DNA from: Candidatus Latescibacterota bacterium
GTDB taxonomy: Bacteria; Latescibacterota; UBA2968; UBA8231
NCBI GenBank assembly: GCA_022820485.1
Contig: JAJEFJ010000034.1
Span: forward strand, 49,324 to 113,323
Length of the DNA stretch: 64,000 bases
Direction of reading: 5' to 3'
Shown: positions 8,454 to 64,000 of the stretch, in pieces
How positions within the stretch are numbered: the stretch's first letter is position 1
Layout: each line of letters starts with the position of its first letter
Position numbers and translations under genes: made by a program
Notes under the pieces: generated by a model
Seen by the model: only the letters and a program-made list of their open reading frames with translations
What the model was told of the DNA's origin: nothing
Databases searched by the model: none

Positions 8454-9449
8454 ATGGTGTTGGACATCCGCGACTTGCGCCAACAGGCCGCGCCAGTCGC
8501 CGAAACATCGCTAGACCAATTACTCCACGGCGAACAGGCCCAAATACATGGGCTGGTGCTCAGCGCGGACGATTTGGAGCAACTCTTGACCATCGCCGAG
8601 GACTCGGGCGACAGCCGCCGGCTAGCGGCCATCGACATCTTGAGTCATCACCGCTCCTGGCTGTCTTCGCTGCGCCTGCTGCGCCGGATCGTGCGGTTGG
8701 CGCACAAGGAACTCGATTCCCGACTAGCCGCAGCCTTGGTGCAAGCACTGCGCCAATGCGACGAAGTCGCCCAATTTCTAACCAGCAAAGAGCGCACGGT
8801 CGCCCGTGAAGCAGCGCAAGGCGTGCCGATCAGCCGCCAGACCCTCGCGCCGATCACTGAGGCACTAGCGGCGGGCCTCCCAGCCGACATCGCGGCCGTA
8901 TTGCTCGACAAAATGCGCCGCACGCATCCATCTATGGTGCCCTATGCCGTCGATTGTCTCCTCAAGTGCGATCCCAATGAGAGCCTCTTGCGCGCGTTCT
9001 TGGCGCACTTGCCGCAGATACCGCTCTTCGCGCTCTTTGTCGAGACCGGGCTGCCGCAAACTATGACTTCGACCACCCGCGTCTGGCAACGGGCAGCGCG
9101 GATAGCCGCTGAAATCCTCCAAGAGGCTCCATCGGCCAAGCTGCTGCGCCACCTGCTCAGCAAGTGCGGCGAGGACGCGGCTTTCGCCCGCAGCCACGCC
9201 CGCTTCCTGCACCAAATCACCCAACGCGCCGACACCTCGTCGGACGCCGATTTAATCGGTCACTTTGAGCGGCTCACCTCCGGTGCATCCGAAGCCAAGG
9301 TCGCTCGCCTAGCCCCGCTATTAGTCGGATTAAGTGGGAGACTCGACGGCCAAGCAGGGCAGCAAGCGGCCGCCTTGCTAGAAAATTGGAAATCTCGCTC
9401 GGCTTCGCTCAAACTCAAGATCTATCACCTAGAGCAAGGCATCCGCTGA
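8454..9449 (+). CDS. HEAT-like helical-repeat protein, function unknown
   Basis: A 331-residue soluble protein made almost entirely of amphipathic helix pairs (RRLAAIDILSHHRSWLSSLRLL, DIAAVLLDKMRRTHPSMVPYAVDCLL), consistent with HEAT or armadillo-like repeats. The frame opens earlier at 8412, but the first ATG is at 8454, so that start is chosen. It has no signal peptide or enzyme motif. A strong terminator begins 30 nt after the stop. Such proteins usually act as scaffolds; no partner is evident from the neighbours. Confidence 0.6.
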   Translation: MVLDIRDLRQQAAPVAETSLDQLLHGEQAQIHGLVLSADDLEQLLTIAEDSGDSRRLAAIDILSHHRSWLSSLRLLRRIVRLAHKELDSRLAAALVQALRQCDEVAQFLTSKERTVAREAAQGVPISRQTLAPITEALAAGLPADIAAVLLDKMRRTHPSMVPYAVDCLLKCDPNESLLRAFLAHLPQIPLFALFVETGLPQTMTSTTRVWQRAARIAAEILQEAPSAKLLRHLLSKCGEDAAFARSHARFLHQITQRADTSSDADLIGHFERLTSGASEAKVARLAPLLVGLSGRLDGQAGQQAAALLENWKSRSASLKLKIYHLEQGIR

Positions 9450-9478
9450 GCATTTGTTCCAATACGAGTCTCCCCAAG

Positions 9479-9509
9479 GGCCGTTCGCCGACGGGCGAAC
9501 GGCCTTTTT
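9479..9509 (+). terminator. Rho-independent terminator
   Basis: The 11-bp stem GGCCGTTCGCC (9479-9489) pairs with GGCGAACGGCC (9494-9504) around loop GACG, followed by TTTTT. The T run overlaps the stop codon of the convergent lptG gene. Confidence 0.9.
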
Positions 9510-10581
9510 ATTTGTGCACGCGCCACAGCAGCACCAAGGCCAATACGGCAAACAACAGGTTGGCTATCCACGCGCCTAGCCAAGGCGAGAGGATTTGATT
9601 CCAACCGAGGGCTTGGCCGGCCTTGACGCAACTGTAGTAAACAAAGCAGATCAGGACCCCCAAGCCGAAGCTGTTGGCCAAGCCAGCGCGGCGGGCATTG
9701 GCACCGAGGATCGCGCCAAGGGCGATGATGATGAAACTAGTCAGGGGAAAGGATACTTTCAGATGCAAATCGACGCGCTGGCGCGTGGCGTCCTCCCCGT
9801 TGAGCGTGGCGCGGGCGATGTAGTCGGCCAACTCGGCGTAGCTCATTTCCTCGGGATCCTTCTGCTGGCGAGCAAAGTCGCTGGGGAGCAACGACAAACT
9901 CGGTAAGGATAGGGTATCAAAAGAAGAAGTCGCCACAGCCTCGTCCGCGGCAAAACGAAAGCGGCGGCCTTCAAAAAGCACCCACATGCCCTCCCGCCAC
10001 TCCATGCGCCGAGCCACGGCGCGCTCCAGCGGCGCGTAGCCGCGCAGTCGCTCCCAAGACACTTCGCTGGCGCGTTGCCGCTCCGCATCGTAGCTGCGGG
10101 CGTACACGAACTGGTTGTCCGCGTCTTGGAGCAGGACTTGGCGGCGCGATCCATCGCTGCGGTGATAGGACTTAATCTCATCGTTGATTTGGTTGTAGCG
10201 ATAGGTGGCGGACGGCACCACCCAATCGGTAAAGAAAAAGGCCGCGACCGCAACGACGAGGGCACACGCCAAAACCGGGGCCAGCAGGCGATACAGGCTA
10301 ATGCCAGTGGCCTTCATGGCGGCAATTTCATTCTGGCGCGCCAAGCTGGTCAAGGCAAAGAGCGCGCCCAGCAGGGCGGCGATGGGCAGGGTCAAGATGA
10401 GCCAGTACGGGAGCCGATAGACGTAGTAGAGCAAGATCTGCTCGGGACGAGCTTCAAAGTCGATAAACGTGTCGATGTTTTCGGTGAGATCGATAATCAC
10501 CGCAATGAGCAACAGGCTGACCACGGCAATTCCCAGACACAACAGAAAGCGGCGCGTCAGATAGAGGTCGAGGATGCGCAT
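9508..10581 (-). CDS. lptG: LptG-type LPS export permease (YjgP/YjgQ family)
   Basis: A 357-residue protein starting MRILDLYLTRRFLLCLG. It has the LptF/LptG layout: two N-terminal transmembrane helices, then two more after VPSA (TM segments near 10-35, 55-80 and 95-120), a periplasmic beta-rich domain at about 135-255, and three C-terminal helices. With LptF and the ATPase LptB it would extract LPS from the inner membrane. The start at 10581 is preferred over an upstream in-frame start because it fits the family N-terminus. It lies 1 nt after the lptF-like gene, so the genes are co-transcribed. LptF and LptG are hard to tell apart; second place in the operon favours LptG. Confidence 0.85.
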   Translation of the reverse strand: MRILDLYLTRRFLLCLGIAVVSLLLIAVIIDLTENIDTFIDFEARPEQILLYYVYRLPYWLILTLPIAALLGALFALTSLARQNEIAAMKATGISLYRLLAPVLACALVVAVAAFFFTDWVVPSATYRYNQINDEIKSYHRSDGSRRQVLLQDADNQFVYARSYDAERQRASEVSWERLRGYAPLERAVARRMEWREGMWVLFEGRRFRFAADEAVATSSFDTLSLPSLSLLPSDFARQQKDPEEMSYAELADYIARATLNGEDATRQRVDLHLKVSFPLTSFIIIALGAILGANARRAGLANSFGLGVLICFVYYSCVKAGQALGWNQILSPWLGAWIANLLFAVLALVLLWRVHK

Positions 10582-24999: not shown

Positions 25000-25041
25000 G
25001 GAGAGTCTGCTAAGCAGGAAAAACTAGGCTTCGACCTGAGC

Positions 25042-53408: not shown

Positions 53409-54395
53409 ATGCCCATAACCGATGCGATCCACAAGACAGATCGACTCGAAGAAATCAAAGTGCTGTTCCTGCGGCGGCCCGAAGGGGTGGGCACTAGGGA
53501 AATCGCCCAGCTTTTGCGTGTGAGTCAACGGACGGCCCGGCGCTATGTGCTGGAGTTGTCGGAGAAGGGACGGCTGCCGGTGTACCGGGAGGGGCGGGTC
53601 TGGAAGCTGGTGGAGGGCGGACAAATCGACCTGCGTCGCATCCAGTTGAACTTAGACGAGGCTCGCGCGCTCTACTTGGCGGCGCGGATGCTGTCGGCTT
53701 ACAGTGATAAGCACAATCCGCATGTGGTCGCGTCCCTGCTCAAGCTGGCCGCAGCCTTGCCAGAGGCCATTGGGGCGCACATTGAGCGCACGGCAGAGGC
53801 GGTTTCGCAAAGGCGGCTTGCGCCGGAGTATCTGAACGTCTTGGAAGGGCTGACTCGGGCTTGGGCTTGCCAGCGGCAGGTGCGGCTCAGCTATCGAGAT
53901 CCCATCTCTGGGAAGCGGTCAGAGCGTCTATTCGACCCCTTTTTCATTGAGCCGTCCTTTGTGGGCTATGCCTGCTATGTGCTCGGTTTCGATCACTCTC
54001 GGCAGGCGATCCGCATCTTTAAGGTCGAGCGGTTGGAGCGGGTCGAGGTGTTGGACTCCAGCTATGAGATGCCGCCGGATTTTGACCCCTACGACTACCT
54101 GAAGTTCGCTTGGGGGATCATGGGCGGCGACGAGGTGGTGGAGGTGAAATTGCGGTTTTCCGCGAAGGTGGCCTATCGAGTGCGGGAGTCAGACTGGCCG
54201 GGAGTGGTGAAGCGGGAGGAAGGTAAGGACGGACGGTGTACGCTGACTTTTTTGGTCAATCACGTTTTGGAAATGAAGCCTTGGATTAGAGGATGGGGGC
54301 CGGATTGCGAAGTGCTGGCACCGGAGGAATTGCGGCGGGAGATTGGGGTGGAGATGAAGGCGGCGGGGGCGGTGTATGAAAAAGATCAGAGATAG
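53409..54395 (+). CDS. HTH-WYL transcriptional regulator next to cas operon
   Basis: A 328-residue regulator. The N-terminal helix-turn-helix is at about 12-60 (GTREIAQLLRVSQRTARRYVLEL). The central WYL-type domain holds VRLSYRDPISGKRSERLFDP and CYVLGFDHSRQAIRIFKVERL, and a C-terminal WCX-like region follows. WYL proteins next to CRISPR loci act as ligand-responsive regulators of cas genes. The cas promoter begins 5 nt after its stop, with a palindrome over the -10 box. Start chosen at the first codon before the HTH, with GGAGA upstream; the frame is open further upstream. Confidence 0.85.
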   Translation: MPITDAIHKTDRLEEIKVLFLRRPEGVGTREIAQLLRVSQRTARRYVLELSEKGRLPVYREGRVWKLVEGGQIDLRRIQLNLDEARALYLAARMLSAYSDKHNPHVVASLLKLAAALPEAIGAHIERTAEAVSQRRLAPEYLNVLEGLTRAWACQRQVRLSYRDPISGKRSERLFDPFFIEPSFVGYACYVLGFDHSRQAIRIFKVERLERVEVLDSSYEMPPDFDPYDYLKFAWGIMGGDEVVEVKLRFSAKVAYRVRESDWPGVVKREEGKDGRCTLTFLVNHVLEMKPWIRGWGPDCEVLAPEELRREIGVEMKAAGAVYEKDQR

Positions 54396-54399
54396 AGGG

Positions 54400-54428
54400 T
54401 TGACAAATAATCGGTAGTAGCCTACTAT
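54400..54428 (+). promoter_or_regulatory. Sigma70-type promoter of the cas operon
   Basis: Consensus TTGACA (54400-54405), a 17-nt spacer, then TACTAT (54423-54428). Transcription would begin near 54435. It is the only strong promoter before cas6, and all eight cas genes overlap or nearly touch, so it probably drives the whole operon. Confidence 0.8.
54415..54427. promoter_or_regulatory. Candidate operator palindrome over the cas -10 box
   Basis: TAGTAG-C-CTACTA: two perfect 6-nt arms around one base, overlapping the -10 element. The position is ideal for a repressor. The neighbouring WYL protein is the obvious candidate (inference). Confidence 0.45.
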
Positions 54429-54445
54429 ATAGAGCATAAGTCAAT

Positions 54446-54469
54446 TTAATATGATGTTTCTTTTATATC
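54446..54469 (+). promoter_or_regulatory. Predicted self-target of the degenerate mini-array, with TTA PAM
   Basis: The sequence at 54449-54469 matches the 21 nt after the first pseudo-repeat (54542-54562) at 18 positions, with mismatches at 6, 12 and 19. It is preceded by TTA (54446-54448). It lies about 15-35 nt downstream of the likely transcription start, where a bound Cascade could block elongation. Confidence 0.6.
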
Positions 54470-54504
54470 CTAAAAAAAATAGGAGCTAATTTATTGATTA
54501 TAAA

Positions 54505-54597
54505 TGACTTATAATAAATTCAGAAAAATAAGAATTGAAATATATGTTGTTTGTTTTATGTCGAACAACAGAAATCCACCAAAATAAGGATATACAG
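54505..54597 (+). ncRNA. Degenerate mini-CRISPR encoding a CreR-like crRNA
   Basis: Pseudo-repeat 1 (54505-54541) matches the array repeat at 21 of its last 25 positions (54517-54541). Its hairpin is preserved: AATCC/GGATT in the array repeat becomes AATTC/GAATT here, a compensatory change. The pseudo-spacer starts at 54542 and runs 19-31 nt. Pseudo-repeat 2 (54573-54597; 5' part diverged) matches at 18 of 25 positions and ends 1 nt before the cas6 ATG. The pseudo-spacer resembles the operon's own early transcribed region. By analogy with CreR RNAs this should yield a guide giving partial pairing and repression without cleavage. A perfect TATAAT lies at 54510-54515, but without a good -35. 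Confidence 0.65.
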
Positions 54598-54598
54598 T

Positions 54599-55273
54599 AT
54601 GCTTGAAACTAGATGCGATGTAACCACTATAACTCTCTACTGCATAAGACCATTGCAAAATAACGAAACACCTAAATTACGTGGCTTCTTCGGCAACCTA
54701 TACCGTAATCGTGCGGAATTTCACCACCACGGAAATACGGGTCTGATTTACCAGCACCCTCTAATCCAATACAAAACTATAAGTGGTACAGGGAGAATGA
54801 TGGGACTAGAAAAGGGAGCATTCTTGTTACAGGCTGTCGATATACCAAACGCCATAGAGATAGATAGAGAACGCATAGAAGTTCTCGAAAGTAAAAGGAC
54901 AACTGAACAAGTCCCAATAGGCTCTACAAAAAAAAGTCTAGCATATCGATTCATCACGCCTTGGCTAGCCCTCAATGAACTCAACTACAAACGCTTTATC
55001 AGCACGAAAAGCATAACAGGGCGAGAGAACATCCTCAATAGAATTTTAGTTGGAAATATCTTGTCTTTATGTAAATCAATCGGTTTCTCGGTAGAAGAAA
55101 GGATCGTCTCTTCAATGCAAATAGAAGGTACGCAGCAGATCGAAATCAAAAATGGCGTCGAATTGCTAGGCATCGCAGGTACCTTCTCCGTCAATTTTGC
55201 ATTGCCCAACTGGTGGGGCATCGGCAAACAGAGTGCTCGTGGATTTGGCACCATCCAAAGAGTTGAGGAGTAA
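54599..55273 (+). CDS. cas6: Cas6 family CRISPR RNA endoribonuclease
   Basis: A 224-residue protein: an N-terminal ferredoxin-like half (ITLYCIRPLQNNETPKLRGF) and a C-terminal glycine-rich loop, GIGKQSARGFGTI, characteristic of Cas6. A His-rich segment (AEFHHHGN) may hold the catalytic histidine. It cuts the pre-crRNA inside repeats, leaving an 8-nt ATTGAAAC-type handle. The ATG at 54599 follows AAGGA; an upstream TTG frame start would run through the mini-array and is rejected. The RBS itself lies within pseudo-repeat 2. Confidence 0.85.
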   Translation: MLETRCDVTTITLYCIRPLQNNETPKLRGFFGNLYRNRAEFHHHGNTGLIYQHPLIQYKTISGTGRMMGLEKGAFLLQAVDIPNAIEIDRERIEVLESKRTTEQVPIGSTKKSLAYRFITPWLALNELNYKRFISTKSITGRENILNRILVGNILSLCKSIGFSVEERIVSSMQIEGTQQIEIKNGVELLGIAGTFSVNFALPNWWGIGKQSARGFGTIQRVEE

Positions 55274-55276
55274 GCA

Positions 55277-56980
55277 ATGAGCGAAGTCCAGATATGCTTT
55301 CCCAGACTCAACAATTTCTGGAACGACTCAGGGGTGTTGGGTATATATCGCTGCATCATGGGGGATGTCCACGCCGATATACAGCGCGGTGATAACGAGT
55401 CGTATAACCATATTGGTGAAGAGTGTTCAGTTACCGTCAATTTAGAAAAAGATGGTCTGAAAATCGGCGGTGAGGTGAAGGACGTTGAGGCAGTTTTAGA
55501 ACGGGCATACGGACGCTTAATAAAGCGCTATTATGATGTCTCTACGCAGCTTCAAATCGAGGACAGTCCTTCTTGGAATTTCTATTACGATTCCGAAAAA
55601 GACCAGTTTGTGTCTTTCCCCAAGCGAAAAGCGCGAGGTATCGCCGCGCTCGTTTTTGACAAGGCTCCCCGTCCAGCTAGTGGCCAAGTCCGTTGGAAGG
55701 ACAAGCAGCCTGGCCTGTTACCCGACTCACATACCCATATACAAGACAGATTAGACGCATTCTTAGAACAGCAAAAACTCAAGGCCGGACCTCCTGCAGG
55801 TATGCTGCTGGACGAACCCAACAGAGTACGACCTAAAGTAAAAATTAAAATCAAAGACGGCAGGCTCAAAGCCGACCCCTGCTTTCTTTGCGGCCAATAC
55901 TCTTCATCGATGGAAAAGGTCAATCAGACAATTTTTCCTTTTGTAACCGGCGACGCTGGCGTTCTATCTTTCTTTAATATGACTCGTGAAGTATCTCAGG
56001 TATGCTGGCGTTGTGCCTACGTCGGCAAATTTGTTCCAGTCAATGGGTTTTTCAGTAAATCAGGTGACCGCCTGCACATGTTCTTCCCCTTCGCACCCGA
56101 CTTACTCAAGATGAATCAAGTCTATGATACCCTGAATAGTCTCGTTGAGTGGGAACCCAATTTCTGGCGCAATTTTGAATCGCGTATAGGAGGCTATTTC
56201 ACCCATCCGCGAGAAGTGGCGTTTTCCTTTATGCACCGCGTTTACACACATCTGGCACAGGATCGCCAAAACGTCAATCAAGACGATGGCTATAGCGCAT
56301 TTATGGATGTGGTGTGGAGTGATGCGCCTCTTTCTTTCGCGTTGGTCTCTGCCGAACAGAAGGGAAATACCCAGATGCCCACACAGGTCTGGCTCTTTGA
56401 CGATGTGGTCTATCTGTTCCGTTTATTCCAACATATCCAAAAACAAGACGAAACTTGGAAAGACATCGCACATTCAATGATCGATTTCACAGCACAACGA
56501 AATGAAAATCGCTCTCTGGAACGCGATCGTTTGCTCGGATCGGTACTGCGTAAACAATCCATTTTACGTCAAGCAGAAGCATTCGCCTATCACATAAATC
56601 GAGAAGGACGGCAGTACTTTGCACCACTTTTTGATTTCGTCATTCACTACGAAGATGTTCTGCGGAAGAAAGGAGAAAGTATGGAAACACAAGCACGAGA
56701 AGCCGCCGTAACCCTAGGGAGACGCATCGGCTCGGTCATCGCCAAAGAAGGAGGTAAAAAGGGAAGTCTGTTCGCACTGAGAAAGTGTCGAACGCTTCCA
56801 GATTTTCTCAGCGAACTAAACCGACTTCAGTTTAAGTGGCAAATCGCCGTACCCCCAGCCGCTTACGAAGGTCAGCTAGACCAAACTAACTTTGAAGAGT
56901 TTCGCGGTTTCTGCATGTTGGCGGCTCTCAATTCCTTTAACGCTGGTACTGCCTCTAACGACAAGAAAGGAGAACAGTAA
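55277..56980 (+). CDS. cas8: Cas8-type large subunit, Cst1 (CXXC-CXXC) family
   Basis: A 567-residue protein with two zinc-knuckle pairs, CFLC (202-205) and CWRC (243-246), the hallmark of the Cst1/CXXC_CXXC group found in Tneap-type subtype I systems. In Cascade the large subunit recognises the PAM and recruits Cas3. It starts 3 nt after cas6 and overlaps cas7 by 1 nt. Cst1 is the member of the locus that points most clearly to the subtype (I-B/I-A-like). Confidence 0.85.
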   Translation: MSEVQICFPRLNNFWNDSGVLGIYRCIMGDVHADIQRGDNESYNHIGEECSVTVNLEKDGLKIGGEVKDVEAVLERAYGRLIKRYYDVSTQLQIEDSPSWNFYYDSEKDQFVSFPKRKARGIAALVFDKAPRPASGQVRWKDKQPGLLPDSHTHIQDRLDAFLEQQKLKAGPPAGMLLDEPNRVRPKVKIKIKDGRLKADPCFLCGQYSSSMEKVNQTIFPFVTGDAGVLSFFNMTREVSQVCWRCAYVGKFVPVNGFFSKSGDRLHMFFPFAPDLLKMNQVYDTLNSLVEWEPNFWRNFESRIGGYFTHPREVAFSFMHRVYTHLAQDRQNVNQDDGYSAFMDVVWSDAPLSFALVSAEQKGNTQMPTQVWLFDDVVYLFRLFQHIQKQDETWKDIAHSMIDFTAQRNENRSLERDRLLGSVLRKQSILRQAEAFAYHINREGRQYFAPLFDFVIHYEDVLRKKGESMETQAREAAVTLGRRIGSVIAKEGGKKGSLFALRKCRTLPDFLSELNRLQFKWQIAVPPAAYEGQLDQTNFEEFRGFCMLAALNSFNAGTASNDKKGEQ

Positions 56981-57900
56981 TGAGCGAAGATTGCACTCAG
57001 GCGAAAGCCTTGACCATTACCTATCTGACGCCCGTTTCGTTTGCTAGCCTCAACGGAGGTGATAAGGAAGCGGATAATATATCCAGTATCAAGAAGCTCA
57101 CCCGGGAGACAAACGAAGGCATCAGGGAGTATCCCTATGTCTCCTCTCAAGCGCTGCGCAGGGCATTGCGCGATCAGTTGGCCACGATGGGCCACAAGCT
57201 GTCCGAGGGAGTGGTGGCTGCGGCTAAAAAGGGAGCGGCGACAACTAAATGCGATCCGGCCTCCTATATCGACGATGACCTGTTCGGCTACATGAATGCC
57301 CAGTCGGGAGAGAGTGGCGGCAGAGGAAAGACCGATAAAAGAACCTCTCCCGTACGCGTCTCGCCGCTGGTCGCCATTCAGCCTTACCAAGGAGATTTGG
57401 ATTTCGGCACCAACTACATGAGTGTCGAAGCAGGTGGCGATCCCAATATCTACGAAACGGAAATTCACGGCGGTCTTTATCGGGGCACCATTCTCATCGA
57501 ACTTGATCGCGTAGGGGCAGGAGACGGTTTTGAAAGTGACTTGGAAGCCTCTCGTAAAGCCGAGCGCATTACTGCCTTGCTGGATGCCCTGCAAAATCTG
57601 TGGAGCACTGGACGGCAAAGCCGCTTCTTGGCCGATCTGACACCTAAGTTTATCGCTGCCGCTCTTACCTCAGTGAAGGCACCGATCTTTTTAGAATCCG
57701 TCCAAGTCAAGGGACAGACGCTTAACGGTGCGGTTTTGGACGAAGTGCTAAAAGACCATGAGGCTGTAGTGATCGATTCGGTAATTGGGGTGCGTTCGGG
57801 CTTGTTTGAAGGTGTCCCCGAAGGGGCCTGTACTATAGGTGAGGCATTCGTAAAGCTAAATGGTTGGGTGAAAGACTGCTACAGGCAAAACGGAGCGTAA
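56980..57900 (+). CDS. cas7: Cas7 (Cst2/DevR family) crRNA backbone protein
   Basis: A 306-residue RAMP-type protein. ALTITYLTPVSFASLNGGDKEADNI and YPYVSSQALRRALRDQLATMG match the Cst2/DevR family start. TSPVRVSPLVAIQPYQGDLDFGTNYMS and ETEIHGGLYRGTILIELDRVG are the later conserved blocks. It polymerises along the crRNA in Cascade. It begins in the last base of the cas8 stop. Confidence 0.9.
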   Translation: MSEDCTQAKALTITYLTPVSFASLNGGDKEADNISSIKKLTRETNEGIREYPYVSSQALRRALRDQLATMGHKLSEGVVAAAKKGAATTKCDPASYIDDDLFGYMNAQSGESGGRGKTDKRTSPVRVSPLVAIQPYQGDLDFGTNYMSVEAGGDPNIYETEIHGGLYRGTILIELDRVGAGDGFESDLEASRKAERITALLDALQNLWSTGRQSRFLADLTPKFIAAALTSVKAPIFLESVQVKGQTLNGAVLDEVLKDHEAVVIDSVIGVRSGLFEGVPEGACTIGEAFVKLNGWVKDCYRQNGA

Positions 57901-57903
57901 GAC

Positions 57904-58635
57904 ATGCATCTGGTATTGATCCAGGCATTCGCAGAGACCGCCTCCTTTCGCCTACCCGAAACACATACCTTTCACAAAACGCTTCCCCTGCCGTCCTATA
58001 CAAGTTGTATAGGATTGCTAGGGGCGGCACTCGGGTATGGATTGGAGGAGAGTCAACAGTTTGTCGAGGAGAATAAGGTGCGCGTTGGCGTCGGGGGCAG
58101 AGATCGCGGTACCTTCAAAGACCTCTGGAAGTACCGCAAAGTAAAGTCTGGAGAAGTGATTTCAGATGTATTACTGAGAGAATATGTTGTCGATCTATCT
58201 CTTGGTCTGGTGTACGGTGCTGAGGATAAATCTACTGTTCAGCGAATTGCTCAAGCGTTCAACGACCCGGTATATGCGCTTACCGCTGGTCACAGTGATA
58301 GCCTGCTCGTCTTGTGCTCCATCGAGTTGATGGAGGCAGATTGGGAACCCCTAGAATCGGTCCATTTTTGTGCAGTACCTCTGGATATGACAGGAGCGTA
58401 CCAAGCTGATAAATCTGTCTTAGATCTACCTCTCACTGAGTCCATACGTGCGCCCCAAGTATTCAATCTACCTGTACGCTTCAGTTTTGAAGGAGAGCGA
58501 CGTACGATTGCTGGACGGGAGTTTTTCACCTATATCGGCCATCCGATACAAGTCAAAGAGCCTATCGAGGGCTTTAGTTTAAGATCCCGAATCCTAGGCG
58601 CAGGCTACGACAAAATTACAGTGGTACCGCGATGA
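57904..58635 (+). CDS. cas5: Cas5 crRNA 5'-handle-binding subunit
   Basis: A 243-residue RAMP protein. It opens HLVLIQAFAETASFRLPETHTFHKTLPLPSYTSCIGLLGAALG, the Cas5 start with its 'P.PS...G..GA' segment, and ends with a basic C-terminal strand. It caps the crRNA 5' handle. It lies 3 nt after cas7, and its end overlaps cas3 by 4 nt. Confidence 0.88.
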   Translation: MHLVLIQAFAETASFRLPETHTFHKTLPLPSYTSCIGLLGAALGYGLEESQQFVEENKVRVGVGGRDRGTFKDLWKYRKVKSGEVISDVLLREYVVDLSLGLVYGAEDKSTVQRIAQAFNDPVYALTAGHSDSLLVLCSIELMEADWEPLESVHFCAVPLDMTGAYQADKSVLDLPLTESIRAPQVFNLPVRFSFEGERRTIAGREFFTYIGHPIQVKEPIEGFSLRSRILGAGYDKITVVPR

Positions 58636-60938
58636 CCTTTCTAGCTAAATGCAGACCTGATGAAACGTACGAAGAGCACGTTTGGAGTGTCTATTTGGCT
58701 TGGAAGCAATTGATCGATAAACACAGCGGTGCCATCAATAGGCTATGTGATCGCCACAGTATAAACCGAGATCGCTTTCTTTTAAGTAGCCTTCTGTGTG
58801 TAGCTTTTCACGATATGGGCAAGCTGTCTGCAAATTTCCAACGCATTATGCACGCCTCGTCTGAGGCAGAGCGACAAAGAGCCATAAAAGCCAATTTTCG
58901 CCATGAATACGCATCTACAGCCTTTGCTTTTCTAGGGGCGCGTAATTTGCAGCAGACGCATGGCCAATTGACCGAAGCCATCTGCACGGGAGTAATGGAA
59001 GCGATGGTAGTTCTCGGTCATCACAAAACGGTTGATGGGGAATTGACTCGTTTCGAGCGCGAGGGTAAAAACCCTAGTGCTCTTACATGGGCTGAAGGGG
59101 GAATTGAAGAAGGGCAACGTGTCGTTGAGAAAATTTACGACGATTTCGGTGCTTGCCCTCCGACACTGGATTACGAGAAGTGTAGTGAGTTAGCACGGAA
59201 TCAGCCTCCTTTCGCTGTAAACTTGAGTGGGTTTGTGAGAGATATAGGAACTACCCGAGAGTTGTTTATCCTGATGAAGGGACTATTGATGAATGCCGAC
59301 TGGCACGCTTCGGCACATAGTTTAGATTACCAATATGCTGTAGATGTAAGCCCTGAAAAAGTCGGTTCCTATCTCCAAGAAAAAGGCGAACGCGAGGGCT
59401 GGATTTTTTCGGAATTTCGCGATTTTCAACGTACTTGTGGAAGTATAGACGGCCATGTCATCGCGGTCGCTCCTACAGGCAGCGGCAAAACGGAAGCAGC
59501 CTTACTGTGGGCACTAGGACAGGTGAAACAAGGGCACGCTGGAAAAATCCTCTACCTCCTTCCCACCATGGTAACAGCCAACAGTTTGTATGAACGGATG
59601 CGTCAATTTTTTTGTTCTTATGATCATCTAGTGGGTTTAACTCACTCAATGGCGGATTTAGTGACCCGGCGAGAGCAAGAGCAGATGGACGATGCGGTCG
59701 GCGATAATAAAGAAGATGTACGTTCTCGTTCGCTCTTTGACCGCCATTTTATTCCACCAGTGACAGTGGGGACCGTTGATCAATTATTGACGACTTTGTT
59801 TCACGCTGGACGTTGGCCTCTTAAGGCGTTTGCCGCCTGCGATTCCGCAATTGTTCTGGATGAAATCCACGCATACGATCCCTACACGGCGGGATTAATA
59901 TTCAAAGCTATCGAGCAATTAGGAACCGCCGGAGCACGGTTTATGGTGATGAGCGCGACTTTGCCTCGTTTCCTAGAGCACGACTTGACAACCGCGCTAA
60001 GGCAATCGGCATGTGTAGAGGTAGTCAGAGACCACGAGCTGCTACAAGAATCTAGGAGTTTATATCGAGTTGTTGACGATGATCTAATAAGCTATCTGGA
60101 CATGGTCCGTGATAAGGTCTCTACCGGTAAAAAAGTCTTGGTAGTGGTAAATACTGTGGGGCGATGCCAAGAATTAGCTCAAGCGCTAGAGGATCTTCAG
60201 CCCGTCTGTTATCACTCCAAATTCATTCTCAAAGACAGGCGAAAAAAAGAGGCGTCTATTTTAAATCAGGAGCCTATGCTGTTAATTGCGACACAAGTGG
60301 TAGAAGTTGCTTTAGATATTGATTTCGATGTGCTTTTTACCGAATGTGCGCCCCCCGATGCGCTGGCGCAACGGGCAGGGCGAGTCAACCGAAAAAGAAA
60401 ACGGAATGGAGAAGTAATTATCTTCCGTCCGGGGCCTGGATCAGAGAAAATCTATTCCGATGATACGCATGTTGAGCAGAGTGAGAAACAGGCGCTCTTA
60501 AACCGCAGCTTCCGTGCATTTGCGGATAAGGATAATAGGCGACTAACTGAACAAGACCTACTGGATTTAGTGGAGGGTGTTTATGCTAATACGGAAATAC
60601 AGTCTCACGACGACTTCATCCTTGCCCAGCAAAGAGTGGATCATGACCAGAGACGTTTTCGAGGTATTTTAGATCCTATTTACGGTGAAGACGAACGTCG
60701 TCAAACCCGAATTTCTAAGTATGAACAGCAGAGCGTCATTCCTCACATATTTGAAAACGAAATAATGAGATTATCGGATATCAGAGATCGGCGTCTTTAC
60801 GAGTTGAAGATGCCTGTGTGGTACATAAAACAGCACTCATGGAGTGCTGAAGATGGCAGATTTTTGTTTTGCGAGATGGAATACGATTTTCACTTAGGTG
60901 GGCGTTTCGCCACGGACGATGCTCTGAGAATGTTCTAA
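58632..60938 (+). CDS. cas3: Cas3 HD nuclease-helicase
   Basis: A 768-residue effector. The HD domain has His60-Asp61 (AFHDMGK), His91, His130-His131 and Asp223 (NADWHAS). The SF2 helicase has Walker A APTGSGKT (280-287), DEIH (410-413), MSATLP and the motif VI region LAQRAGRVNRKRKR. Catalytic residues all look intact, so interference should be possible. It unwinds and degrades DNA after Cascade recruitment. It ends in the first base of the cas1 ATG. Confidence 0.95.
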   Translation: MTFLAKCRPDETYEEHVWSVYLAWKQLIDKHSGAINRLCDRHSINRDRFLLSSLLCVAFHDMGKLSANFQRIMHASSEAERQRAIKANFRHEYASTAFAFLGARNLQQTHGQLTEAICTGVMEAMVVLGHHKTVDGELTRFEREGKNPSALTWAEGGIEEGQRVVEKIYDDFGACPPTLDYEKCSELARNQPPFAVNLSGFVRDIGTTRELFILMKGLLMNADWHASAHSLDYQYAVDVSPEKVGSYLQEKGEREGWIFSEFRDFQRTCGSIDGHVIAVAPTGSGKTEAALLWALGQVKQGHAGKILYLLPTMVTANSLYERMRQFFCSYDHLVGLTHSMADLVTRREQEQMDDAVGDNKEDVRSRSLFDRHFIPPVTVGTVDQLLTTLFHAGRWPLKAFAACDSAIVLDEIHAYDPYTAGLIFKAIEQLGTAGARFMVMSATLPRFLEHDLTTALRQSACVEVVRDHELLQESRSLYRVVDDDLISYLDMVRDKVSTGKKVLVVVNTVGRCQELAQALEDLQPVCYHSKFILKDRRKKEASILNQEPMLLIATQVVEVALDIDFDVLFTECAPPDALAQRAGRVNRKRKRNGEVIIFRPGPGSEKIYSDDTHVEQSEKQALLNRSFRAFADKDNRRLTEQDLLDLVEGVYANTEIQSHDDFILAQQRVDHDQRRFRGILDPIYGEDERRQTRISKYEQQSVIPHIFENEIMRLSDIRDRRLYELKMPVWYIKQHSWSAEDGRFLFCEMEYDFHLGGRFATDDALRMF

Positions 60939-61915
60939 TGCAACTCGTCATCAATACATACGGTGCCTACCTCCAACGGCGCGGCGAACTCTTCCAGATC
61001 AAAGCAGATGGCAAGGTTTCGGAAGTCTCCGCCCGCAAGGTACAGTCTATTCTCATAACTACAGGTGCCGCTTTTTCTACTGATGCTGTCCAACTGGCGA
61101 CAGAGAAGAATATCGACATTCTGTTTCTGGATAAGTACGGCGATCCGTTCGGTCGGGTGTGGCACGGTCGGCCCGGTTCCACCACAGCCATACGCCGTCG
61201 GCAACTGGAAATCGCAGGGGAAAAGTACGGGTTAAAGCTGGCGTTGTCCTGGATGGATCGGAAAATACAGAACCAAATCGACTTCCTGACCGCGATGCGG
61301 GACCGACGCACTCGACTATCTACGCTGCTGACAGAGGCAATCGGCGGCCTGAAGGCTATGCAGTTGCAGTTACAGGACACGGAAGGAGGGTTAGATCAGG
61401 TACGAGACCAAGTGATGGGACTCGAAGGCCGCGCCAGTCGTACTTATTGGGCGGCGGTAAGTCGCTTATTGCCTGAGACGTACCGCTTTGATGGCCGTAG
61501 TCGCAATCCCGCTAAAGACGAATTCAACTGTCTGTTGAACTACGCCTATGGAGTGCTTTACGGCCTAGTGGAACGGGCTTGTCTGCTCGCCGGGTTGGAC
61601 CCGTACATTGGCTTTGTGCATACAGATCACTATAATAAACCGTCGCTGGTTTTCGACGTGATTGAAAACTACCGAATTTGGGCCGATGAGACTGTAGTGC
61701 AGCTATTTTCAAGGCACAAAATCAAAAAAGCACTATTCGATCAGCTCAAAAACGGGCTGACCCTAAACAAGGAAGGAAAGGCCGTCTTGCTGGAGGCTCT
61801 GACCGAACACCTAGATGAACGTATCAGGTACCGCAATCGCAATATCAGTCGGCGCGATGCAGTGCAGTTCGATCTCCACCGGATTGCTAACGACCTGCTC
61901 AAGGAGAAGCCGTGA
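60938..61915 (+). CDS. cas1: Cas1 integrase
   Basis: A 325-residue adaptation nuclease. The metal site is Glu163 (LEGRASRTYW), His228 (GFVHTDHYNKPSL) and Asp240/Glu243 (VFDVIENYR). The ATG overlaps the cas3 stop (TAATG). With Cas2 it inserts spacers at the leader end, so the two odd spacers there are its latest products. Confidence 0.96.
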   Translation: MQLVINTYGAYLQRRGELFQIKADGKVSEVSARKVQSILITTGAAFSTDAVQLATEKNIDILFLDKYGDPFGRVWHGRPGSTTAIRRRQLEIAGEKYGLKLALSWMDRKIQNQIDFLTAMRDRRTRLSTLLTEAIGGLKAMQLQLQDTEGGLDQVRDQVMGLEGRASRTYWAAVSRLLPETYRFDGRSRNPAKDEFNCLLNYAYGVLYGLVERACLLAGLDPYIGFVHTDHYNKPSLVFDVIENYRIWADETVVQLFSRHKIKKALFDQLKNGLTLNKEGKAVLLEALTEHLDERIRYRNRNISRRDAVQFDLHRIANDLLKEKP

Positions 61916-62217
61916 AACAAACAGAGACACTCGTCTGGGTCATATACGATATTCAGGAGGATAAAGCTCGCACTAAAGTGGCCAAAGCCTGCAAAGAAGC
62001 AGGTTTGTACCGCGTGCAAAAGTCGGTATTCGTAGGCACGATCCAGCGCAATCGGCTAGATGAACTATCAATGCGAACGGAAGACCTGATTAATCAGGAA
62101 GCGGATCGGGTGTACATCTTTCCGATGTGCGGTCCAGATTTCCAGAAGGCTATTCTGCAAGGTCAGGCTTTTGACCAACGTTTGGTGCAAGATGAGGTAA
62201 GGAATCTATTCGTATGA
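61912..62217 (+). CDS. cas2: Cas2
   Basis: A 101-residue ferredoxin-fold protein with a GTG start overlapping the cas1 stop. VWVIYDIQEDKARTKVAKAC carries the conserved Asp14, and YRVQKSVFVGTI the second strand. It forms the core of the Cas1-Cas2 integrase. Confidence 0.95.
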   Translation: MKQTETLVWVIYDIQEDKARTKVAKACKEAGLYRVQKSVFVGTIQRNRLDELSMRTEDLINQEADRVYIFPMCGPDFQKAILQGQAFDQRLVQDEVRNLFV

Positions 62218-62810
62218 TAGATACTGAAACTAGTCCGATGCTCACGCCATCGGAAGTCGTCGAACACATCTGGTGTCCGCGCTTCACCTATTTTATGAAT
62301 GTCCTGATGATTCCTCAGTTTGAGGACCGGCGCTATAAAGTGCTCAAGGGGCGAGAGATTCACAAACGCCGAGAAAAGGAGAATAGAGATTATTTGCGCA
62401 AGAAACTCGGCGTCGTCAATAAAGAACAGGCTGTATATCTGGCATCGCCGAAAGTACGAGTGAGAGGTATTGTAGATGAGGTTCTTTTTTTAGATGATGG
62501 CACAATGGCTCCGCTCGATTTTAAGTACACTGAGTATCAAGAAAGAGCCTTCAGGACACATGCTATTCAGGTAACACTGTACGGTCTATTGATTGAGGAA
62601 GTATATCAAGCCGAAGTTATACGGGGTTATGTCGCTTATATTCGCGGTGGAAGTAAGGTTGTGGAAGTGCCTCTTTCGGACGAGATTAGAGAGGCGACAG
62701 GTCAGATTTTGGATGAAATGTTTTCTATTATCCACACGGGGAAGCTACCTCGGAAGACGGCTAATAGAAACCATTGTATAGACTGTTGCTATAAAAATAT
62801 CTGCGTTTGA
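62214..62810 (+). CDS. cas4: Cas4 nuclease
   Basis: A 198-residue RecB-type Fe-S nuclease. Cys21 (EHIWCPRF) and the C-terminal CIDCCYKNIC supply cluster cysteines. GIVDEVLF and PLDFKYTEY give the D...D-x-K catalytic core. Cas4 selects PAM-flanked prespacers and their orientation. It is the last gene here, after cas2, rather than before cas1 as is more usual. Confidence 0.93.
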   Translation: MIDTETSPMLTPSEVVEHIWCPRFTYFMNVLMIPQFEDRRYKVLKGREIHKRREKENRDYLRKKLGVVNKEQAVYLASPKVRVRGIVDEVLFLDDGTMAPLDFKYTEYQERAFRTHAIQVTLYGLLIEEVYQAEVIRGYVAYIRGGSKVVEVPLSDEIREATGQILDEMFSIIHTGKLPRKTANRNHCIDCCYKNICV

Positions 62811-62980: not shown

Positions 62981-63017
62981 GTTTCAGCGGCTAATCCAGA
63001 AAAACAAGGATTGAAAC

Positions 63018-63041
63018 TTTTTCTGGATTAGCCGCTGAAAC
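63018..63041 (-). repeat. 24-nt inverted repeat copy within spacer 1
   Basis: The first 24 nt of the 37-nt spacer 1 are the exact reverse complement of repeat positions 1-24. The remaining 13 nt (TGCTCCCAATCGA) are unique. Confidence 0.97.
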
Positions 63042-63091
63042 TGCTCCCAATCGAGTTTCAGCGGCTAATCCAGAAAAACAAGGATTGAAAC

Positions 63092-63115
63092 TTTTTCTGG
63101 ATTAGCCGCTGAAAC
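63092..63115 (-). repeat. 24-nt inverted repeat copy within spacer 2
   Basis: The first 24 nt of the 35-nt spacer 2 are the same exact reverse complement of repeat positions 1-24, followed by a different 11-nt tail, TGACAACATGG. Confidence 0.97.
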
Positions 63116-64000
63116 TGACAACATGGGTTTCAGCGGCTAATCCAGAAAAACAAGGATTGAAACATCTGTTGACGGGAACTCCCATCCTTGCCGCTGCCGC
63201 GTTTCAGCGGCTAATCCAGAAAAACAAGGATTGAAACCCGGAAGATCGTAGCGGAAGGGTTCACCCCGGCGAGTTTCAGCGGCTAATCCAGAAAAACAAG
63301 GATTGAAACGCCGAACTGAACGGCCAACACTGGCGGGATCGCTCGGGTTTCAGCGGCTAATCCAGAAAAACAAGGATTGAAACCGGATCGCGTCGGGCGT
63401 GATCGTGATGCTGTATTCCATTGTTTCAGCGGCTAATCCAGAAAAACAAGGATTGAAACTGGGGGTAGGTAGCCACCAAGGAGGACAGTCTTGGGTTTCA
63501 GCGGCTAATCCAGAAAAACAAGGATTGAAACCGAGAAAGCTCTTGGTATTCGCTCATCTTTTTCATTTGTTTCAGCGGCTAATCCAGAAAAACAAGGATT
63601 GAAACTTGCACAGCCGCCCGAAGCACGTGGGGTTCATTCCGAGTTTCAGCGGCTAATCCAGAAAAACAAGGATTGAAACCGCGAAGGTTTTTTGCAATCT
63701 AAGGAGGGGATTGTCTGGTTTCAGCGGCTAATCCAGAAAAACAAGGATTGAAACCAGGTGCCGGGCATCCGCTCGACCGTATGGTCGCAGTTTCAGCGGC
63801 TAATCCAGAAAAACAAGGATTGAAACCGGGAGGATTCTGCTCAGTGCAGGACGTGGCCGATGTTTCAGCGGCTAATCCAGAAAAACAAGGATTGAAACAA
63901 TGTTGACGTTTAAGCTGCCTACTCCGGGCGCAGGTGTTTCAGCGGCTAATCCAGAAAAACAAGGATTGAAACTTCATATAGCAGTCCTTTGCCCGTGCCC

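Follow-up and report, generated by a model that had tools for sequence, protein, structure and literature searches.

What do two degenerate CRISPR repeats do directly in front of cas6, when the short segment between them matches a site at the beginning of the same leader? The question is raised by a window of 64,000 nucleotides (the whole stretch of DNA analysed), which is part of the 6.26-Mb draft genome G000 of a Latescibacterota bacterium and lies on its contig 22. In our assessment the mini-array in the cas6 leader probably guides the operon's own Cascade to repress the operon, in the manner of the CreR RNAs.

The cas operon, its leader and the degenerate repeats

By the similarity of its genes the operon is of type I-B, of the Cst kind, and runs on the plus strand in the order cas6, cas8b, cas7, cas5, cas3, cas1, cas2, cas4, followed by a CRISPR array with 37-nt repeats. 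The cas proteins are ordinary. Their genes comprise cas6 (Cas6b, 54599-55273; Pfam Cas6b_C 8.4e-33, Cas6b_N 1.6e-18), a Cst1-type cas8b (55277-56980; PADLOC Cas8b 2.5e-35, with a weak match of 0.0067 to Cas_CXXC_CXXC, under the cut-off of that model), cas7 (Cst2/DevR, type I-B, 56980-57900; TIGR02585 6.1e-64), cas5 (57904-58635; TIGR02593 above cut-off, TIGR01895 8.7e-12 and below cut-off), cas3 with HD and helicase parts (58632-60938; TIGR01587 4.9e-77, TIGR01596 1.9e-13), cas1 (60938-61915; TIGR00287 4.7e-88), cas2 (61912-62217; TIGR01573 1.1e-16) and cas4 (62214-62810; TIGR00372 2.6e-36). The canonical array (62981-64000, plus strand) reaches the contig end and has spacers of 35-39 nt and a period of 72-76. 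Its first two spacers (63018-63054 and 63092-63126) each open with 24-25 nt that are exactly the reverse complement of the repeat's beginning and, to judge from this, seem to have been acquired from the CRISPR array itself, each from behind a TTG. Such self-derived spacers are 2 among 456 in 13 arrays, both in the window array, and they were the only matches when the 456 spacers were compared with the available loci; TTG is thereby hinted at as the PAM of the system.

The 203-base leader (54396-54598) separates cas6 from a gene for a WYL-WCX transcriptional regulator (53409-54395, plus strand; Pfam WCX 2.3e-18, WYL 1.3e-13), whose product is also matched by the PADLOC models of CRISPR-associated WYL proteins. 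WYL-WCX ORFs with Pfam support are likewise present upstream of the cas loci L019, L026 and L030, and the regulator is possibly a second layer of cas control. A predicted promoter of the leader and the cas operon, TTGACA-17-TACTAT (54400-54428, plus strand, 10/12), is the sole one found by a scan of 54300-54700. The sequence-only reading had called it the only strong cas promoter; it is indeed the single result of the scan, but chance alone would give as many (1 found, 1.4 expected), so that the "cas promoter" remains a prediction.

In the first degenerate repeat, psi-R1 (54505-54541, plus strand), the scored part 54517-54541 (AATTCAGAAAAATAAGAATTGAAAT) agrees at 21/25 positions with the final 25 nt of the repeat in the array (GTTTCAGCGGCTAATCCAGAAAAACAAGGATTGAAAC), as had been claimed and as direct reading bears out. 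All four differences are transitions. No other 25-nt stretch of the 64 kb, the array aside, matches the repeat as well, the next best reaching 18, and a match of at least 21/25 occurred in 0/20,000 dinucleotide shuffles of the leader, on the plus strand as well as on both strands. Over the full 37 nt psi-R1 scores 21/37 and is not outstanding (position 25000 scores 22/37), a consequence of decay in the first 12 nt (0/12). The predicted 5' handle, ATTGAAAT (54534-54541), is kept at 7/8 positions. A perfect TATAAT lacking a good -35 element is found at 54510-54515, in the decayed 5' part of psi-R1 and before its conserved part; a guide-only transcript might possibly start there.

The second degenerate repeat, psi-R2 (54561-54597, plus strand), is the joint second-best repeat match in the window (18/25 over the scored part 54573-54597; core 14/17, handle 4/8) and leaves a single base between its end and the cas6 start codon (54599). 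It encloses the motif AAGGA (54586-54590), which by sequence and position is the likely Shine-Dalgarno of cas6. By analogy with the real repeat, which is cut before the handle ATTGAAAC, a Cas6 cut is predicted between 54589 and 54590, inside this motif. With the overlooked second repeat at 54573-54597 taken into account, the RNA to be expected extends over 54534-54589 rather than over 54534-54572, as first proposed. The two repeats are identical at 21/37 positions and decayed in opposite ways, psi-R1 retaining the handle at 7/8 and psi-R2 at 4/8, with a core of 14/17 in both; oppositely decayed halves are described for two-repeat creA genes in Cheng et al. 2021 (PMC8501985). Near-identical repeats and full-length spacers, the marks of a canonical array, are thus absent from the mini-array: its pseudo-spacer psi-S (about 19-21 nt; 54542-54560, plus strand) has an implied length of 19 nt, against 35-39 nt in the array. 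A hairpin of 9 pairs is predicted in the RNA of 54545-54570, taking in some of the pseudo-spacer together with the decayed 5' portion of psi-R2; the fold of the leader RNA as a whole is not unusually stable (z -1.15).

The pseudo-spacer and its target

The pseudo-spacer, with the match extending to 54562, resembles a protospacer-like target at 54449-54469 (plus strand). The claim that 54542-54562 and 54449-54469 agree at 18/21 positions, with mismatches at 6, 12 and 19 and a TTA before the target, was fully reproduced. Positions 1-5 and 7-11, in the following termed the seed, match at 10/10, and positions 13-18 match as well. The target is preceded by TTTA (TTA at 54446-54448) and begins 20 nt after the -10 hexamer of the predicted promoter. 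An 18/21 match was obtained in 0/20,000 shuffles, irrespective of whether 54300-54541 or the AT-rich 54396-54541 was shuffled; the 10/10 seed alone appeared in 11/20,000 and 7/20,000 of these shuffles, respectively, and the seed combined with TTN in 3/20,000 and 2/20,000. Chance is excluded for the repeat match and the target match. The match starts exactly at the junction of psi-R1 and psi-S and, on the target side, follows the PAM-like TTA; neither would be expected from a simple duplication. TTN plus seed occurs at two sites in the own 6.26-Mb assembly, the window target and one other, which was rejected as it lies inside mechanically listed ORFs.

Mini-arrays and targets in related loci

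Cas6 searches gave matches in 9 of 64 genomes of the own phylum, 6 loci in a scan of genome contigs and, at 1e-20, matches in 11 of 395 genomes of the Desulfococcaceae phylum; these three sets overlap partly, and 20 cas6 loci were checked for degenerate repeats. The nearest relatives (P0002-P0008, Cas6 82-93% identical) are known as proteins and stand outside this comparison of DNA. Degenerate repeats are present at most 1.5 kb upstream of cas6 in 6/20 loci (window, L019, L020, L021, L023 and L027), and elsewhere at the cas locus in two, namely L026, where 1.9 kb separate them from their target in the leader of cas6, and L030, where they precede cas8. The other 12/20 loci gave no mini-array, with L081 lacking upstream sequence and L028 offering only about 260 nt. 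L043/G351 and L024 were given a first look only, and a scan of the whole locus L029/G026 found nothing. An order-wide Cas8 search recovered only the own genome among 25, and a scan of viral contigs with the Cas6 alignment revealed no relative. A pattern search in the 395 genomes of the Desulfococcaceae phylum returned 45 places in 42 genomes, and a mini-array of the window kind was recognised at the G065 place only; 29 of the other 44 places were read and rejected as mini-arrays, among them L050 and L060, which have a full repeat end directly after them and were taken as array edges. A stricter pattern was applied to a draw of 395 whose handles were largely the same; of the 7 places that resulted, 5 had already been examined and the other two are L105 and L106.

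Leaving aside L020, which possesses the second repeat only, seven mini-arrays are available, six from Latescibacterota and one from Desulfococcaceae HSG9 (L023). Their period is 55-58 in 7/7, compared with 72-76 in the window array, and in 7/7 the handle is better kept in psi-R1 (6-8/8) than in psi-R2 (3-5/8). The core scores higher in psi-R2 than in psi-R1 in the six mini-arrays other than that of the window, where both are equal (14/17). Repeat scores of L021, L023 and L030 are approximate, because these contigs carry no array and the repeat of a relative served as reference; for L026, which has two arrays, the reference was the repeat of one of them. The likely cas6 Shine-Dalgarno falls inside the second repeat in four loci (window, L019, L020 and L021), in all of which this repeat starts 25-28 nt before cas6; in L023, G056 and G062 there is no such overlap. 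L020 has two transposase-type ORFs upstream of cas6 and keeps psi-R2 with the Shine-Dalgarno, while psi-R1 and the target are absent, i.e. guide and target are missing together. Transposase genes with Pfam DDE domains occupy the upstream intergenic region in L026 (13767-15682) and L020 (8012-9863), and the contig of G057 begins near the site of these genes.

Targets were selected by positions 1-5 and 7-11 only. A target with a 10/10 seed is found in 5/7 mini-arrays, those of the window, L023, L027/G056, L026/G062 and L030/G054, and all five sit near a gene start of their locus. Position 6 is mismatched in 5/5 and position 12 in 4/5, and positions 13-16, which lie outside the selection, match in 20/20 cells. 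The four bases before the target are TTTA in 4/5 and CTTG in L030. Since L026 and L027 are homologous, the five targets amount to four independent cases. Judged by eye, the L023 target overlies the -10 of the putative promoter there. In L027/G056 the guide is antisense and 218 nt from cas6, and its target belongs to the cas6 leader, where by eye a TATCAT precedes it by 19 nt; in L026/G062, of the same family, an intervening DDE transposase gene (Pfam 5.7e-151) now holds guide and target 1.9 kb apart, and the match is kept.

The L030 mini-array (G054:C355, 6836-8199, minus strand) is located before a second I-B-like cas operon with a Cas_TM1802-type cas8. Its target, 1.3 kb from the guide, has the 10/10 seed and mismatches at 6, 12, 17, 20 and 21. 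A TIR-domain gene (Pfam TIR_2 1.4e-18) lies between target and guide, with the target 41 nt upstream of it, and this locus looks like a CRISPR-repressed TIR effector, that is, a CreTA/CrePA-like module with a protein effector.

In the controls, a 10/10 seed was found at 1/29 unrelated pattern places (read out of a total of 44), the single case being without TTTA, without the mismatch at 6 and without the matches at 13-16, and at 0/8 other pattern places in the own phylum. When the whole locus was searched, chance seeds appeared in 33/300 shuffles for L026 and 8/300 for L030; seed plus 13-16 appeared in 0/300 for either.

Two mini-arrays are without a 10/10 target. L021/G054 possesses psi-R1, psi-S and psi-R2 and no target on its contig, which covers about 320 nt before cas6. 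Three seed matches of its guide elsewhere in G054 were rejected as promoter targets, two because they lie in ORFs and the third (L102) by its sequence alone. In L019/G055 the seed of the target reaches no more than 9/10; this target follows TTTA, lies 650 nt upstream and is unmatched at 13-16. A sigma-factor-like ORF (Pfam Sigma70_r2 1e-5, r4 1.7e-5) follows it at a distance of 47 nt; the region 9290-9940 contains this sigma-70-like ORF (9337-9900) between the 9/10 target and the mini-array before cas6, and the L019 guide may control a sigma factor along with the cas genes. L028/G057 keeps the target sequence on a contig that starts close to cas6, and a genome search with up to 2 mismatches did not find the guide. 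Within the loci available as DNA, the comparison of homologous loci proposed in the sequence-only reading has turned out well for the five mini-arrays with a 10/10 seed and not for those of L021 and L019; the CreR-like interpretation itself gains support from the relatives, with 5/7 full seeds and position 6 mismatched in 5/5.

Proposed function of the mini-array and its relation to known systems

For the window we propose a CreR-type course of events. Transcription would proceed from 54400-54428 through psi-R1, psi-S and psi-R2 into cas6. Cas6, given the conserved handle, would cleave ahead of ATTGAAAT in psi-R1 and ahead of ATATACAG in psi-R2 and release an RNA of about 54534-54589. Cascade loaded with this guide would pair at positions 1-5, 7-11 and 13-18 with 54449-54469 behind the TTA and block RNA polymerase; the pairing pattern is visible in the sequence, the binding is presumed. 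As in published CreR systems, canonical crRNAs would compete for Cascade and so relieve the repression.

Could the guide instead be the CreA antitoxin of a CreTA addiction module, repressing a small toxin RNA, CreT, between the target and psi-R1? No ORF of size lies between them in the window. A mini-ORF of 6 codons (54494-54514, TTG ATT ATA AAT GAC TTA TAA) might be a CreT-like element or encode a leader peptide: its TTG follows an SD-like AGGAG (54481-54485) at 8 nt, and its AUA codon recalls the AUA-based CreT of H. hubeiense, where creTA is likewise directly upstream of the cas operon (PMC8501985). The TIR gene of L030 furthermore indicates that effector modules occur in the group. Both characterised CreT mini-ORFs, however, start with AUG and contain two consecutive minor codons (PMC8501985), whereas the window mini-ORF starts with TTG, has a single AUA and has its SD mostly paired in the predicted leader fold; the same transcript would run on into cas6. 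Nor do the relatives agree with such a module, as L023 has just a few dozen bases between target and psi-R1, and in G056 and G062 the guide runs antisense to the matching cas6 leader and stands apart from it. We regard an addiction module as unlikely.

That the target match plays no role appears very unlikely to us. It would suit psi-R2 holding the likely cas6 Shine-Dalgarno in the window, L019, L020 and L021, the retention of psi-R2 in L020 without psi-R1 or target, and L021 without a target on its contig; yet a seed pattern that leaves positions 6 and 12 free goes far beyond what chance would give and comes back at other loci with different sequences, and in L023, G056 and G062 mini-array and cas6 Shine-Dalgarno do not overlap. 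A fossil without present function, be it a self-matching spacer or the remains of a CRISPR array, would have degenerate repeats, and could have lost its target, as in L021, or its guide, as in L028. Such decay would hardly put mismatches at 6 and 12, where pairing is dispensable, leave 13-18 matched, erode the two repeats in opposite halves, give a period of 55-58 in 7/7, less than in the arrays examined, or let the match in G062 outlast the insertion of a transposase; we consider this explanation very unlikely too.

The CreR-type autorepressor would in addition carry a second loop. Each cut in psi-R2 would also disable the cas6 message concerned, because the cut falls inside the AAGGA Shine-Dalgarno, and would thereby provide a second feedback at the level of Cas6; that Cas6 cuts there at all is inferred from the position of the motif. 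Only tentatively, and with more doubt than confidence, do we suggest a double-loop autoregulator, in which a transcript trimmed by Cas6 yields the guide that shuts the promoter and loses the cas6 Shine-Dalgarno at once. Guide output, Cas6 level and cas transcription would then be locked one to one, and saturation of Cas6 by precursors of canonical crRNAs would release both loops together. The fallback is to take the window mini-array as a plain further member of CreR.

According to reviews, CreR guides autorepress cas genes of types I-B, I-E and V-A, in response to crRNA supply and anti-CRISPRs (PMC12737573, PMC13131331, PMC12948488), and are generally uncoupled from a toxin gene (PMC12737573). 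The window shares with them a crRNA-like unit from ectopic repeats adjoining cas genes, here directly before cas6, and the partial match to a cas promoter region, here a predicted promoter. A toxin gene is not evident in the window, where the 6-codon mini-ORF might yet be a CreT. It differs in the guide being inside the cas6 leader with the likely cas6 Shine-Dalgarno in its second repeat, in the Latescibacterota host and in the Cst-type I-B system. With CreA of CreTA in H. hispanica and H. hubeiense (PMC8501985, PMC9458426) it has in common two oppositely decayed repeats, the seed pairing at 1-5 and 7-11 with 6 and 12 free and a PAM-like motif (TTA in the window; PMC8501985), and the position upstream of the cas operon known from H. 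hubeiense (PMC8501985). In the latter each of positions 1-5 and 7-11 is required for promoter repression by Cascade, and 6 and 12 are tolerant (PMC8501985). In contrast to CreTA, the window has no convincing toxin between target and guide, and its transcript would continue into cas6. The scaRNA/Cas9 system of F. novicida (PMC9458426) also redirects a defence effector by an ectopic repeat RNA to repress transcription, with a type II effector and other target genes. Racr and solitary phage repeat units (PMC10651486) are repeat mimics outside arrays that likewise act through Cas6; they are viral and yield aberrant Cas complexes, whereas the window repeats belong to a host cas operon and have a target.

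CreR itself is known; the overlap of a repeat with the cas6 Shine-Dalgarno looks new. Among the titles listed in literature searches, none mentions a guide with a repeat overlapping the cas6 ribosome-binding site, an absence of little weight because the primary CreR article was not covered. That article reportedly appeared in Cell Host and Microbe in 2023.

If the proposed reading is true, RNA-guided self-control of CRISPR-Cas would reach into the uncultured Latescibacterota and into Cst-type I-B operons. The seven mini-arrays provide a simple rule for searches, a handle followed after 38-41 nt by AAAAYAAGGAT, from which G062 deviates in the last bases. The window would also offer an experimentally accessible case of a predicted mutual exclusion between guide production and cas6 translation, and it would open the question of whether the supply of Cas6, beyond that of crRNA, sets the level of a CRISPR system.
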